Assembly: GCA_027858895.1 (NCBI GenBank)
Contig: JAQIBX010000155.1
Coordinates: forward strand, 1-33,073
Origin: Desulfuromusa sp.
GTDB taxonomy: Bacteria > Desulfobacterota > Desulfuromonadia > Desulfuromonadales > Geopsychrobacteraceae
Length of the DNA: 33,073 bases
Direction: 5' to 3'
Within the stretch, counting starts at the first letter, position 1; the number at the start of each line of letters is the position of its first letter. A model generated the notes under the pieces. That model was not told the DNA's origin, did no database searches, and worked only from the letters and a program-made list of their open reading frames with translations. The translations under genes were made by a program, and so were the position numbers. Shown one piece after another: positions 29,439 through 33,073 of this stretch.

Positions 29439-29474
29439 AAAAACCCCGAGCCGTTATTCTGCTCGGGGTTTTTT
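29439..29474. terminator. Bidirectional intrinsic terminator between rplS and the secA-like gene
   Basis: An 11-base stem (29441-29451 with 29461-29471, CCCCGAGC core) has A residues on the left and T residues on the right. It can therefore stop rplS transcripts on the plus strand and secA-like transcripts on the minus strand; the minus-strand stop codon touches it. Confidence 0.93.
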
Positions 29475-31464
29475 ATTGCGTGCCCGTAGTTGATGGTGCG
29501 AACGAGAGAGCATCATTCAGCTGGTTATCCGTTTCAAGAACCGATTTTCGCTGTTGAAACGCTATTTTCTGGGCAGATCTTTCTGCTTGGTTCAGCAGCT
29601 TATTAAAAAACAATCTCCCTTCCCCAGCACAAGCAAGCCTTTTCCCCAGTATTGTCAGTAGTAACCCTGAATCGTTTTTTTGTAGCAGCTCATCGTCAAG
29701 GCTGGCGTAAGTACGTACTGAGCCTGGATCTCCCTGTCGTGCCCCGCGCCCGAGCAGTTGTCGATCGATCCGTTTTGATTCATGCGGTTCGGATAGAATC
29801 ACATGTAATCCCCCCAACTGCGCCACTCCGTGACCCAATTTGATGTCAGCTCCGCGACCAGCCATGTTGGTGGCAATGGTTACCTCTCCTCGTTGTCCGG
29901 CAGTCGCAATGATCTTGGCTTCTTGCCGATGATTGAGTGCGTTGAGTAACTGATAAGACAGTTGTCTCTGATCAAGCATCTCTGCCAGTTTTTTGCTTGC
30001 AGAAAGGCTTCTTGTCCCGACCAGAACCGGTTGACCAGTGGCTTGGCAATTGACGATCTCGGTACAGATTTCCCGCCATTTTTTGTTCTGATCCGAATAG
30101 TAGCGGCTTTTAAATATTTTCCTCTGGCAGGGGCGATGGGTGGGAATCGATACCACCGCTAAACGATAAACATCCCAGAATTCATTTGCCACTTCTCGGG
30201 CGGTCCCGGTTAAGCCAGAGAGGTTTCTGAACAGGCGAAAAAATTGCTGAAAGCTCAGCCGCGCCAAGGTTTCATTCGGGTTGGACAGGGGCAGGTTTTC
30301 ACGTGCTTCAATCGCTTGGTGCAGCCCCTGTTGCCAGCTTCTGCCCGGCATCATGCGACCGGTAAACTCATCAATAATAATCACTTGGTCATCGACTATG
30401 ACGTAATTGTTATCCCGATGATAAAATTCCCTGGCGCGCAGGGTTGTCAGAATCAGTTCATTGCGGTGTGATTCATTCTGAAATAAACCCGATAAAGTTT
30501 CTGACTTCCTCGCAATGACTGTTGCCCCAGCTTTGGTCAGGCTGATTTCACGATAGTGCGAATCAACCCGATAATCTTTCTCTAGCGTCAGTTCTGCGGT
30601 GATCGTTTGTGCCGCTTGAATAGCATCTAGAAAAAAATGATTGGCCTGGGGTTTGGCGATGATTAAAGGGGTTACGGCCTCATCGATCAGGACACTGTCG
30701 GCCTCATCGATGATCGCGGTATCAATGCCGCGCATGACCAGAGTCTCGTTGCTTTGATCACAAGGATCAATCGCTTGCTGGAGCAGCTGTCGTTCAGGGG
30801 TCTGGCAATCGCGCATTTGCAGTCGATCGCGTAAGAAGTCGGCCAACAGTTCTTTACTGGTGGTATAGACGACATCTGTGCTGTAGCTTTGCTTCCGGCT
30901 TGCTGCGGCCATCGTACCGTCGACCCAACTGACTGAAATGCCGCAAAAATTGTACAGGGGGGTCAGCTCTTTGGCATCACGCTCAGCGAGATAATCGTTA
31001 GCGGTGATGACATGGCAGGGGCGTCCCTCCCACGCAGTAAGAATCGCTGGGAAACAGGCAGTGAGGCTTTTTCCTTCACCGGTCGCCATCTCTACCAGGG
31101 AACCATGCAAGAGTGCAATAGCCGCCAGGATTTGGACTTCGTAGGGGCGCATTCCCATGGATCTGAACGCAGCCTCGGTAATCAAGGCAAAGGCTTCTCG
31201 CGGGGAATCTGCTGGTCCCTTTTTGCGTCGTCGATAGATTTTTTTCAGCTGCATTAGTTGCTGTTTCAGTTCTTGATCGGAAAGCTTTTGCAATTGGCTG
31301 GTTTGCTGCAAAACCTCTTCTGCCTGTTTCTGCCAGCTCTGCATCAATCCTTTCCTACGCCGGTAGCGCCCCAACAGTTGATGGATCGATCGATCCAGCC
31401 CTTTATGCAACGGTTCGGGACGCATGGATGAGCTTATTTGATAGTGTAGTGGAAGCCCGCTCAT
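29473..31464 (-). CDS. SecA-like ATPase lacking the canonical C-terminal third
   Basis: The 663-residue protein is homologous to SecA. Motor motifs are intact: Walker A MATGEGKS at 126-133, TANDYLAERDA, Walker B IIDEADS at 251-257, VIIIDEFTGRMMPGR at 361-375, the LTGTA motif at 418-422, TNMAGRGADIKLG at 532-544 and the arginine-finger region GRGARQGDPGS at 572-582. A crosslinking (PPXD-like) domain is present between about 260 and 365. After residue ~650 it stops: the part equivalent to the long scaffold helix (LNQAERSAQKIAFQQRKSVLE) ends the protein. Helical wing, two-helix finger and zinc tail are absent; canonical SecA has ~840-900 residues. The start overlaps the upstream membrane-protein stop (ATGA). 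It is a paralogue-type SecA, not the housekeeping one; its role as motor of an accessory export system is inference. Confidence 0.88.
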   Translation of the reverse strand: MSGLPLHYQISSSMRPEPLHKGLDRSIHQLLGRYRRRKGLMQSWQKQAEEVLQQTSQLQKLSDQELKQQLMQLKKIYRRRKKGPADSPREAFALITEAAFRSMGMRPYEVQILAAIALLHGSLVEMATGEGKSLTACFPAILTAWEGRPCHVITANDYLAERDAKELTPLYNFCGISVSWVDGTMAAASRKQSYSTDVVYTTSKELLADFLRDRLQMRDCQTPERQLLQQAIDPCDQSNETLVMRGIDTAIIDEADSVLIDEAVTPLIIAKPQANHFFLDAIQAAQTITAELTLEKDYRVDSHYREISLTKAGATVIARKSETLSGLFQNESHRNELILTTLRAREFYHRDNNYVIVDDQVIIIDEFTGRMMPGRSWQQGLHQAIEARENLPLSNPNETLARLSFQQFFRLFRNLSGLTGTAREVANEFWDVYRLAVVSIPTHRPCQRKIFKSRYYSDQNKKWREICTEIVNCQATGQPVLVGTRSLSASKKLAEMLDQRQLSYQLLNALNHRQEAKIIATAGQRGEVTIATNMAGRGADIKLGHGVAQLGGLHVILSEPHESKRIDRQLLGRGARQGDPGSVRTYASLDDELLQKNDSGLLLTILGKRLACAGEGRLFFNKLLNQAERSAQKIAFQQRKSVLETDNQLNDALSFAPSTTGTQ

Positions 31465-33073
31465 GTCTGGTACCGTTGTTGTAAAAACTGCCTGGTTTTC
31501 CGATAAAGCTGTTGCAGCAGTGGTTCAGCGGGGAGTTGAAAGCGAATTTTTCCAGAATGTCCGTGCCGCAGCAGTTGCTCTCCAGTATTTTCCAGATGGG
31601 CAGAAATCTGGAAAAATGGTTCAATGGTTTGCAATCCTTGCGCATCCATCCCGCTGACAGGGATGACCCCTCCACCCTTCCAGCCGAGGACTGCAGATGG
31701 CAGCCGCCCTTGCTCAAAAGGGATCACCTGATAGTTTTTGACCTGAAACTCGTTGTTTTCAATTCCCGCCAGCCGGACAATAATCTGTTCGGCAGTCTGA
31801 AGAGAGAAAATGTTTGCTGCCTCCTCCTGACGAACGATCGCAGTGAAGCGAAACGTATCGTTAGAAATAATTTCGCCCAGCTTGACCCCTTTGGGTAGCC
31901 AACTGCCAATCCGTTGCCCTTGCTGCGGAGCAAACCAGGTTCCGCTCTGCGTTGCAGTTATCAGCAAAGACTGTTGCCGCTGCTGCAATTCGGTCAGTTT
32001 ATTGTCCAGGACTTGCAGGCGTTTTTGCAACGCAGCACGCGTTGTACCACCTTGCAGCACTGCCCCTTGTTGCTGCAGGAACAGGACTTCATTGCGCTGG
32101 GCAGTGACCAGTTGCAGTTCAATGAAAAGCTCTGGATTGACCAGCCGAAATAGCGGTTCACCTTTAGCTACCTGGGAACCGTTGGAACAAAGCACCTCAA
32201 GCAGCTGCCCATCTGTTTGATTGGAAACGACCGTATGGTTGGTCGCTTCAAGGATGCCCGGAGCGCGAAACCGGTTGGGGAGTGGAACAGCTAAGATCAG
32301 CGCAGCGATTAATACACCTCCAGTCAAACTACTGATGAGGGCTCTTGGGCGAACCCTGCTCAACTCAGGGCTGGTCATAAGGTAGTTGATGAAACGGCCG
32401 ATCGGCAGGATTCCCCAGATCAGTAGACAAAAAACCGCCATCAATAATCCTGCCAGTAGAAAACGATCAGCGACAAAGAGGATGATGGCTCCATAGACAA
32501 AGAGTCGATAAATGCCGCTGAGAATGCCGTACCCGGTCAACCAGAAAGCCTCTTTGTGACTGTCTGTCGGGCTACTGGATTGTTTCAGGCCGAAAAAATA
32601 GCGCCGTGCCAGATGTTTTAAATGGGCCTGCGAACGAGGCTGCAGGTTCGGGATGTCCAGTAGATCAGAAAGGATGTAATAGCCGTCGTAGCGAAGCAGT
32701 GGATTGGCATTGAACAGCAGGGTTGAAATCGAGGCAACGATCAGGATGTTCAAAGCCAGACTGTGAATAGCTCCGGGACCGGAATTGGCCCAGAGTAAAG
32801 CGGCTCCGGCTGCGGCAAAAAACTCAAATAGCATTCCTGACGTTGCGACCAGAATCCGTTGGCGGCGTTCGCGGAAAGACCAGCTGGCGGTGGCATCCAT
32901 ATACGGCATTGGAGCAAACACAATGAACATGATGCCAACGGTATGAACTTCTCCGCCAAAGCGTTTACAGACCAGCGTATGCCCCATCTCATGTAACGAT
33001 TTGACGATTACCAGCCCGCCATAGAGGAGCAGCCAATTGTCAAAATCGAGCAGGTTTTTCGTTTCGCTGAGCA
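31461..33073 (-). CDS. M50-type zinc metalloprotease / HlyD adaptor fusion (N-terminus outside window)
   Basis: The frame runs to the window edge, so the N-terminus lies beyond 33073; 536 residues are visible. Near the edge it reads VKSLHEMGHTLV, giving the HExxH zinc motif (bases 32979-32993), then FNANPLLRYDGYYILSDLL, the second site-2-protease-like motif with the third zinc ligand Asp. Several membrane helices follow, including LFVYGAIILFVAD and VLIAALILAVPLP. The C-terminal ~280 residues form a periplasmic HlyD-like adaptor: GILEATNHTVVSNQTDGQL (first lipoyl half), a Gln-rich coiled coil (RAALQKRLQVLDNKLTELQQ) and a second lipoyl half with GTWFAPQQGQ. It overlaps the secA-like gene by four bases. 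M50/HlyD fusions occur in some RiPP-like and Planctomycete loci; here the substrate is unknown. Confidence 0.85.
   Translation of the reverse strand, partial: LSETKNLLDFDNWLLLYGGLVIVKSLHEMGHTLVCKRFGGEVHTVGIMFIVFAPMPYMDATASWSFRERRQRILVATSGMLFEFFAAAGAALLWANSGPGAIHSLALNILIVASISTLLFNANPLLRYDGYYILSDLLDIPNLQPRSQAHLKHLARRYFFGLKQSSSPTDSHKEAFWLTGYGILSGIYRLFVYGAIILFVADRFLLAGLLMAVFCLLIWGILPIGRFINYLMTSPELSRVRPRALISSLTGGVLIAALILAVPLPNRFRAPGILEATNHTVVSNQTDGQLLEVLCSNGSQVAKGEPLFRLVNPELFIELQLVTAQRNEVLFLQQQGAVLQGGTTRAALQKRLQVLDNKLTELQQRQQSLLITATQSGTWFAPQQGQRIGSWLPKGVKLGEIISNDTFRFTAIVRQEEAANIFSLQTAEQIIVRLAGIENNEFQVKNYQVIPFEQGRLPSAVLGWKGGGVIPVSGMDAQGLQTIEPFFQISAHLENTGEQLLRHGHSGKIRFQLPAEPLLQQLYRKTRQFLQQRYQT

Follow-up and report, generated by a model that had tools for sequence, protein, structure and literature searches.

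A short SecA-like ATPase encoded beside an M50 protease-HlyD fusion: a candidate export module that tracks LEPR-XLL proteins

The window analyzed here is the whole of contig JAQIBX010000155.1 from the Desulfuromusa sp. assembly GCA_027858895.1, exactly 33,073 bases, and its last part carries two minus-strand genes, one for a short SecA-like ATPase and one for a fusion of an M50 protease with a HlyD-type adaptor (M50-HlyD). A first-pass annotation, made from the sequence alone, had described the two genes as joined by an ATGA overlap, with HExxH and NPLLRYDG motifs in the fusion and intact Walker motifs in the SecA-type motor, and had suggested that motor and protease-adaptor work together in export. 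Both frames, the ATGA junction and the motifs GEGKS, DEAD, HEMGH and NPLLRYDG were present, as listed here.

29473..31464, minus strand: short SecA-like ATPase gene, 663 amino acids (frame call with Pfam, NCBIfam, alignment and tree)
30175..31362, minus strand: SecA_DEAD match, the first nucleotide-binding fold, which encloses the preprotein cross-linking domain (Pfam)
31066..31080, minus strand: Walker A GEGKS, residues 129-133 (motif in translation)
30697..30708, minus strand: Walker B-type DEAD, residues 253-256 (motif in translation)
30307..30621, minus strand: SecA preprotein cross-linking domain match, residues 282-386 (Pfam)
29833..30132, minus strand: SecA P-loop domain match, the second nucleotide-binding fold, residues 445-544 (Pfam)
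31461..31464, minus strand: ATGA in which the stop codon of M50-HlyD overlaps the start codon of SecA (sequence read)
31461..33071, minus strand: M50 protease-HlyD fusion, 536 amino acids visible, 5′ end open and N-terminus cut by the contig end
32979..32993, minus strand: HEMGH metalloprotease motif (H, E and H invariant in a 62-row alignment)
32682..32705, minus strand: NPLLRYDG motif (Asp invariant in the same alignment)
31791..32267, minus strand: HlyD/lipoyl-hairpin adaptor region, residues 269-427 (Pfam, under the gathering score; fold of the relative L024)

On motif reading, the window SecA keeps GEGKS, DEAD, FTGR, NMAGRG and LLGRGARQGD. It matched SecA_DEAD (4.6e-94), P-loop_SecA (5.2e-51) and SecA_PP_bind (3.2e-28) in Pfam, and SecA_SW was absent among the Pfam matches listed at E <= 1. 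The protein aligned with residues 16-606 of the 783-residue Bacillus subtilis SecA chain 3jv2 and then ended. The portion of the B. subtilis protein beyond residue 606 is what we take to be the helical wing/scaffold and the two-helix finger region, so the window SecA appears to lack both. Its score against the canonical SecA model TIGR00963 was 595.3 bits, under the 800-bit cut-off, and the SecA2 models of NCBIfam also scored under their cut-offs (533.9/1085, 500.4/930, 435.2/725 and 416.9/1100 bits). The matches of the fusion protein to Peptidase_M50 (7.7e-6, 25.8 bits) and HlyD_D23 (6.8e-5, 22.7 bits) fell below the Pfam gathering scores of 27.2 and 30, respectively; both assignments are backed by the alignment of the window protein with its relatives, which shows no variation at the catalytic His, Glu and His or at the distal Asp. 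The adaptor part of an AlphaFold2 model of L024 matched the MexA, MacA and AcrA adaptors by fold. The window fusion has HExxH and a distal NPxxxxD, as do M50 site-2 proteases, and may perform intramembrane proteolysis. The nearest named protease model was the daptide HExxH protease NF041824, with 120.1 bits for the window protein and 139.5 bits for that of L024, both under the cut-off of 300.

The contig end cuts the M50-HlyD frame. Its visible portion corresponds to residues 191-721 of the frame of the relative L006, which has 722 residues; because the contig ends at 33073, about 190 N-terminal residues of the fusion and all upstream genes are lost, translation does not truly begin at the ATG at 32987, and the extension past 33073 called for in the first-pass annotation is impossible on this contig. 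No match to the missing part was found elsewhere in the window assembly, which is 98.66% complete. A search of the same assembly for the GAF domain-containing HlyD adaptor (GAF-HlyD) that neighbors the pair in relatives gave only weak HlyD matches, the contig stopping before the position of that neighbor, and no TolC-family gene is visible on the contig.

The pair recurred in other genomes. A scan anchored on the short SecA, covering the best 80 of 585 relatives, found M50-HlyD in 25 of the 80 loci, directly upstream of SecA in 24 and a few kilobases downstream in one (L065); these loci fell in Verrucomicrobiota, Planctomycetota and several proteobacterial groups. Since this first scan was anchored on SecA, it was repeated with M50-HlyD as the anchor in two phyla. 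Strong matches were designated class I at limits set after the E-values had been seen (E <= 1e-200 in the window's phylum and <= 1e-195 in the second), and two to three candidates were scored per genome, so the counts of matches are lower bounds. In the window's phylum (395 genomes), M50-HlyD was matched in at least 37 genomes, 10 of them class I, including the window genome. A short SecA adjoined M50-HlyD in 10 of the 11 class I loci from the other nine class I genomes; the exception, L183, comes from a genome in which another copy has one. The second phylum (294 genomes around L009, Planctomycetota) gave at least 74 genomes with matches, 20 of them class I, and a short SecA in 19 of the 20 class I loci fetched (19 genomes), the miss (L216) being a contig end. 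The SecA of L226 is divergent (E 8e-25), the M50 gene of L228 is interrupted, and SecA is inverted relative to M50-HlyD in L233 and L234. The weaker tier of this phylum had a short SecA in five of 20 loci (L236, L241, L250, L251 and L255). When whole genomes of the window's phylum were considered, an extra SecA (E <= 1e-20) was found in all 10 class I genomes versus none of the 14 tested among the 17 with a weaker M50-HlyD. Distances among SecA and M50-HlyD proteins correlated with r 0.64 over 56 of 57 pairs (L231 was removed by hand), against a maximum of 0.32 in 2000 permutations, with shared organism history not removed from the value.

Comparison of the loci shows a module of GAF-HlyD, an M50-HlyD with an N-terminal PqqD-type recognition domain and a short SecA; a second HlyD protein and DUF3467 are often present as well, and TolC sometimes. 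GAF-HlyD was found in relatives of both phyla and on plasmids, and TolC-family genes in L006, L184, L217, L298 and L307. The first-pass annotation had noted no ATP-binding cassette (ABC) ATPase in the two genes, and a motif scan, limited to the loci, found an ABC-ATPase-like frame in none of 57 paired loci versus six of 58 control loci. Its expectation that the pair would recur across phyla with shared partners was borne out by the second adaptor, the occasional TolC-family gene and, often, a nearby LEPR-XLL gene (see below). The two situations it had named as speaking against the idea, a rarely shared neighborhood and an unrelated complete ABC exporter upstream, were not encountered in the relatives' loci.

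The paired SecAs form a group of their own. Frames of 627-741 amino acids were found for 55 of the 57 (the other two are longer), and 51 of 58 unpaired SecAs have at least 784 amino acids. Seven unpaired SecAs are short, namely L007 and L228, where the M50 gene is fragmentary or interrupted, L021, L256, L044, which adjoins GAF-HlyD, L072, which lies next to OEP and HlyD, and L070. A FastTree phylogeny of 104 sequences over 540 columns, in which the 40 longer SecAs were the first of the list rather than all and L070 was left out, split the paired SecAs, that of the window and L007, L021, L256, L228, L044 and L072 from the longer ones with support 1.0. Walker A was retained in 55 of the 57 paired and 58 of the 58 unpaired copies, the DEAD-type motif in 47 and 57, and NMAGRG in 48 and 57, respectively. 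Public tables label two short SecAs "prepilin peptidase" and "DEAD/DEAH box helicase" (L298:20225-22141 and L297:20139-22124).

In full-length relatives, the membrane part of M50-HlyD is preceded by a domain, about 100 residues long, of the PqqD type, the type that recognizes ribosomally synthesized and post-translationally modified peptides (RiPPs). At E <= 1, PF05402 (PqqD) matched 17 of 23 members (best 5.6e-8) and TIGR03859 matched 13 of 23 (best 4.8e-7), many single scores being under the cut-offs of these models. A profile search of PDB sequences placed PqqD 5sxy on top at E 0.035, which is weak on its own. The AlphaFold2 model of L024 (predicted local distance difference test score, pLDDT, 91) has three strands followed by three helices at residues 27-99, an order that we take to be that of PqqD. 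In the public table, the label "PqqD family" is attached to four of 13 plasmid copies (H2, H6, H9 and H12). Both the profile matches and the modeled order of strands and helices thus point to a PqqD-like domain in the relatives; in the window copy this region is cut off by the contig end.

Genes with the LEPR-XLL motif, LExR-x-L-L-[S/D]-[A/G], which long proteins carry close to their N-terminus, accompany the module. The LEPR-XLL model NF012209 was over its cut-off for genes beside the module in L013, L016, L019 and L063, and a motif scan of the loci among the best 80 of 585 relatives was positive in five of the 25 pair loci versus none of the 55 others. Over entire genomes, matches over the cut-off were present in 23 of the 25 pair genomes versus none of 25 SecA controls (Fisher 5.6e-12), the controls having been hand-picked from the 55 and including the genome of L072, later seen to hold a short SecA with no M50 in the locus. 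In the window's phylum, 28 of the 395 genomes were over the cut-off and the eight best matches were all class I; the positives comprised nine of 10 class I genomes (the miss being the window genome), six of 17 with a weaker M50-HlyD, and 13 of 368 with no catalytic M50-HlyD. Among these 13, the matches of G190, G265 and G299 lie in frames of 12-26 amino acids. At E <= 0.01, the second phylum had LEPR-XLL in 26 of 74 M50-HlyD genomes versus one of 220 others (G608), and in 16 of its 20 class I genomes. Deinobacterium chartae was the one genome over the cut-off among 14 named controls. The LEPR-XLL gene lies beside the module in seven of nine class I genomes of the window's phylum (G437, G435, G412, G138, G383, G203 and G302) and on a different contig in G258 and G253, and G663 of the second phylum has such genes scattered over 18 places. 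The frames range from a few hundred to 15,080 amino acids (G203), and a giant RTX-repeat protein adjoins the module in L024. A looser pattern applied to 14 loci with no match returned two matches only, both already known.

The LEPR-XLL N-termini tend to be basic, with a median net charge of +5 and a positive charge in 54 of 71, and a hydrophobic Sec-like stretch (15-residue mean >= 1.8) was present in one of 71 versus 23 of 28 HlyD adaptors; in these statistics the starts were guessed, five rows had been dropped by hand beforehand and the motif Arg is forced by the pattern. Use of the motif subtype as a class marker, S for class I and D for class II (the loci with no SecA described below), was abandoned. 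It seemed to fit the window's phylum and failed in the second, where class I genomes carry both the S and D forms and class II genomes also carry LLSA.

Plasmids gave the same picture. A tblastn search with the L024 M50-HlyD returned 29 records. We looked at every one of the 13 with at least 35% identity (coverage 99-100%) and, from the 16 weaker ones, at a single record. All 13 close loci have a giant gene with a LEPR-XLL-type N-terminus, or a one-letter variant, upstream of the module. The plasmids are all from Alphaproteobacteria of ten named genera, with near-alike members among them (three Rhizobium, an Ensifer/Sinorhizobium pair and an Alisedimentitalea/M382 pair). The tags read LEPRLLLSAD, LEPRFLLSAD, LEPRVLLNAD, LEPRYLLSAD and LEPRLLLAAD, with the variants MEPRVLLSAD (H9), YEPRLLLSAD (H12) and IEPRILLSAD (H13). 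LEPR-XLL is named in the public tables for four giants (H5, H9, H11 and H13), and NF012209 scans of the H4, H6 and H13 giants were all over the cut-off. In H1 and H11 the frame of the giant gene is broken, and the H10 tag lies in frame upstream of the annotated start. GAF-HlyD was present in 13 of 13 loci, a short SecA in 12 (the match of H2 being in two pieces) and DUF3467 in eight. An ABC peptide importer about 8 kb downstream of the module in Alisedimentitalea and M382 is apparently unrelated.

We propose that the gene pair is probably the conserved half of a dedicated exporter, type I-like but ABC-less, for often giant proteins with an N-terminal LEPR-XLL signal. From the basic, non-hydrophobic LEPR-XLL N-termini and the lack of an ABC-like frame, we infer the following steps. 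The cytosolic PqqD-type domain would bind the basic N-terminus and the LEPR-XLL motif, and the M50 active site would cut near the conserved [S/D][A/G]. The short SecA, which lacks parts that normally engage SecYEG, is the putative energy source and would use ATP to push the chain into or through the membrane part of M50-HlyD, and the HlyD domains with TolC would carry it across the envelope with no ABC transporter. A stricter form of this scheme is possible, though we hold it only tentatively: a one-step, two-membrane exporter in which the truncated SecA docks on M50-HlyD, not on SecYEG, and passes proteins as long as about 15,000 residues out of the cell, with M50-HlyD and its PqqD-type recognition domain acting as receptor, signal peptidase, conduit and adaptor at once and LEPR-XLL as the secretion signal.

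Several observations weigh against the proposed exporter. The SecA frame was absent from 35 of the 92 loci with an M50-HlyD frame, a count that includes a contig end and distant paralogues. Class II loci pair LEPR-XLL or LEPR-like giants with M50-HlyD and no SecA. In the class II locus on an Azospirillum brasilense Sp7 plasmid, a DUF4347 giant starting MALEPRFMFDAAG, which scored 13.2 bits against NF012209, under the cut-off, is accompanied by TolC, two HlyD proteins and M50-HlyD. On a Thalassospira marina plasmid (L307:543-19508), a LEPR-XLL giant, DUF3467, GAF-HlyD, M50-HlyD, HlyD and TolC lie in a row, again with no SecA. The existence of this second class means that SecA is not universal; it may be an add-on, or the housekeeping SecA may take its place in class II. 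Conversely, L072:7072-12657 has the order OEP-short SecA-HlyD, with no M50 in the locus and no LEPR-XLL match in the genome, and may represent another use of the short SecA. At the last SecA motif, only 27 of 57 paired copies fit the pattern used, versus 46 of 58 unpaired ones, and PqqD scores of single members are weak (E 0.0063 for member 1, under the cut-off). LEPR-XLL was not over the cut-off in two of the 25 pair genomes (G001 and G010), in four of the 20 class I genomes (G573, G521, G525 and G615) from the second phylum or, by a genome-wide profile scan, in the window genome itself. Two window-genome hits of 14.7 and 11.3 bits were taken as chance, the first lying in a 17-amino-acid frame; L087 has no motif in a long frame. 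Two genomes with LEPR-XLL genes that look genuine, G132 and G185, have no M50-HlyD match, and in the second phylum many of the LEPR-XLL frames fall short of giant size, having a few hundred to about 2,500 amino acids. Co-occurrence of the module with LEPR-XLL genes is suggestive of transport and falls short of proving it. The G132 genome also holds, at L256:242-3392 (G132:C261), DUF3467 with a short SecA and HlyD, and has LEPRLLLDA/G giants on other contigs (L214 and L215).

Export could instead proceed in two steps, with a short or housekeeping SecA acting through SecYEG and M50-HlyD/TolC only processing the protein and passing it across the outer membrane. We consider this unlikely. It agrees with the lack of an extra SecA in the tested class II genomes and of any SecA in the Thalassospira locus, from which the M50-HlyD part can apparently work without the short SecA, and with the preprotein cross-linking domain retained in the short SecA. 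However, LEPR-XLL N-termini have no hydrophobic signal stretch, and the short SecA alignment stops before the presumed wing and two-helix finger region. That the association is only a bystander linkage, the module and LEPR-XLL genes sharing mobile regions or large-genome lifestyles with no functional dependence, is quite unlikely. The module is plasmid-borne and patchy, the association counts carry no control for genome size and the distance correlation is uncorrected for shared ancestry; on the other hand, the giant was upstream in 13 of 13 plasmids of ten named alphaproteobacterial genera, the association holds where LEPR-XLL genes are scattered, as in G663, and the outcome was the same in two phyla.

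Maturation and export of RiPP-like products, with M50-HlyD trimming small leader peptides in the manner of daptide or epipeptide clusters, would explain the daptide protease as the nearest named model, the PqqD-type domain typical of RiPP enzymes, and the lantibiotic dehydratase and LanC-like gene some kilobases upstream of the giant in Rhizobium johnstonii. This is very unlikely, as the linked genes encode hundreds to 15,000 amino acids and the NF041824 cut-off was not reached, although no systematic scan of the loci for small precursor genes or modification enzymes was made. M50 proteases often act in signaling, and M50-HlyD could be a regulatory site-2 protease beside a short SecA that is a decayed paralogue with no motor role; the GAF domains of the partner protein and the poorly fitting last SecA motif are compatible with this. 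The retention of Walker A and NMAGRG in 55 and 48 of the 57 paired SecAs, the invariant M50 catalytic residues and the adaptor and TolC partners, which indicate transport, make it extremely unlikely.

The proposed exporter has a published forerunner. Kamneva, Poudel and Ward (2015; PMC4452313) described SecA_DEAD proteins lacking all or most of SecA_SW with M50/HlyD, GAF/HlyD, HlyD and sometimes OEP neighbors, some neighbors exceeding 1,000 amino acids (Figure 3 legend), and suggested that SecA_DEAD replaces the ABC ATPase and that the M50 protein is a membrane pore or part of a type I-like system; the broader role of the locus was called "completely unknown". The paper also names the operon META1p2402-2399 of Methylobacterium extorquens AM1. 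The window has the same hallmarks, SecA_DEAD with no SecA_SW and a neighboring M50 protein with HlyD domains, and the gene set of the module in relatives, the ABC-replacement idea and, in part, the phyla coincide with those of the 2015 paper as far as its main text goes. That text has no word-start match for LEPR, PqqD or DUF3467; the substrate, the recognition domain, the class with no SecA and DUF3467 are what the present analysis adds. The first-pass proposal of a SecA motor feeding a protease-adaptor complex thus gained comparative support, with a mechanism read from gene linkage, and had to be qualified in that SecA is not universal and that its core had been published in 2015. The PqqD-type N-terminus and the tracking of the module with LEPR-XLL genes are new here and give a probable substrate class and signal receptor. 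LEPR-XLL (NF012209) would be the substrate signature; it is mentioned in passing in the literature consulted, and no description of an export route for LEPR-XLL proteins was found in the literature searched, which included few subscription papers and no preprints.

The module resembles the type I secretion system (HlyB-HlyD-TolC) in its HlyD adaptors, the TolC-family channel of some loci and the RTX-repeat giant of L024, and differs from it in that no ABC transporter was seen in its loci, the tag is N-terminal and the protease is fused to the adaptor. With canonical SecA, the short SecA shares the helicase motifs and the preprotein cross-linking domain but not the wing/scaffold with the two-helix finger. 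It is an extra paralogue besides the housekeeping one, like the SecA2 of accessory Sec systems, but it is far below the SecA2 cut-offs, lacks the C-terminal region and has HlyD-type partners. A PqqD-like domain and an M50 membrane protease are shared with the daptide HExxH protease and PqqD-type RiPP recognition elements, whereas the M50 part of the module is fused to HlyD and linked to large proteins. If the proposal is correct, it would join two orphans, the SecA-containing locus and the LEPR-XLL tag of very large bacterial proteins; a SecA-type motor would power export with no need for SecYEG, and a leader-peptide reader of peptide biosynthesis would double as a secretion-signal receptor.

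DUF3467 (PF11950), of about 105 amino acids, lies just upstream of GAF-HlyD in many loci (e.g., L182:3384-3710) and is common elsewhere too, 81 of the 395 genomes of the window's phylum being over the cut-off. A role as a SecB-like chaperone, an idea that came from an alignment, was dropped; an AlphaFold2 model (pLDDT 80) had no Foldseek match at E <= 0.001. In VIA-align the best rows for the model were COMMD, Pur-alpha and PC4 (Z about 4-5), with SecB not among the rows shown, and a profile search of PDB sequences found nothing.

Other features recur near the module or its LEPR-XLL genes. An uncharacterized protein of about 300 amino acids follows the short SecA in L013 (L013:11947-12888), where it had no Pfam or NCBIfam match; similar proteins occur in L014, L016 and L019, and the LEPR-XLL gene comes next after it in L013, L016 and L019. 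SapC-family genes are found beside the module (L024:4597-5415, L231:10227-10925, L299:20260-21081 and L310:658-1455). A giant calcium-binding protein on the minus strand of L310 has an annotated start that omits an in-frame LEPR-XLL tag lying upstream of QEZ52_RS00715. The lantibiotic dehydratase and LanC-like genes of the R. johnstonii plasmid are at L313:4495-12407, a few kilobases upstream of the LEPR-XLL giant. In the window genome, the housekeeping SecA is on contig C3 in a 927-amino-acid frame, and a weak SecA_DEAD match (28.6 bits) lies within a 720-amino-acid frame at G000:C40:2689-2892. Downstream of the short SecA in the window are ordinary core genes, which, as named from their translations, include SRP54/Ffh and the rpsP-rimM-trmD-rplS group.

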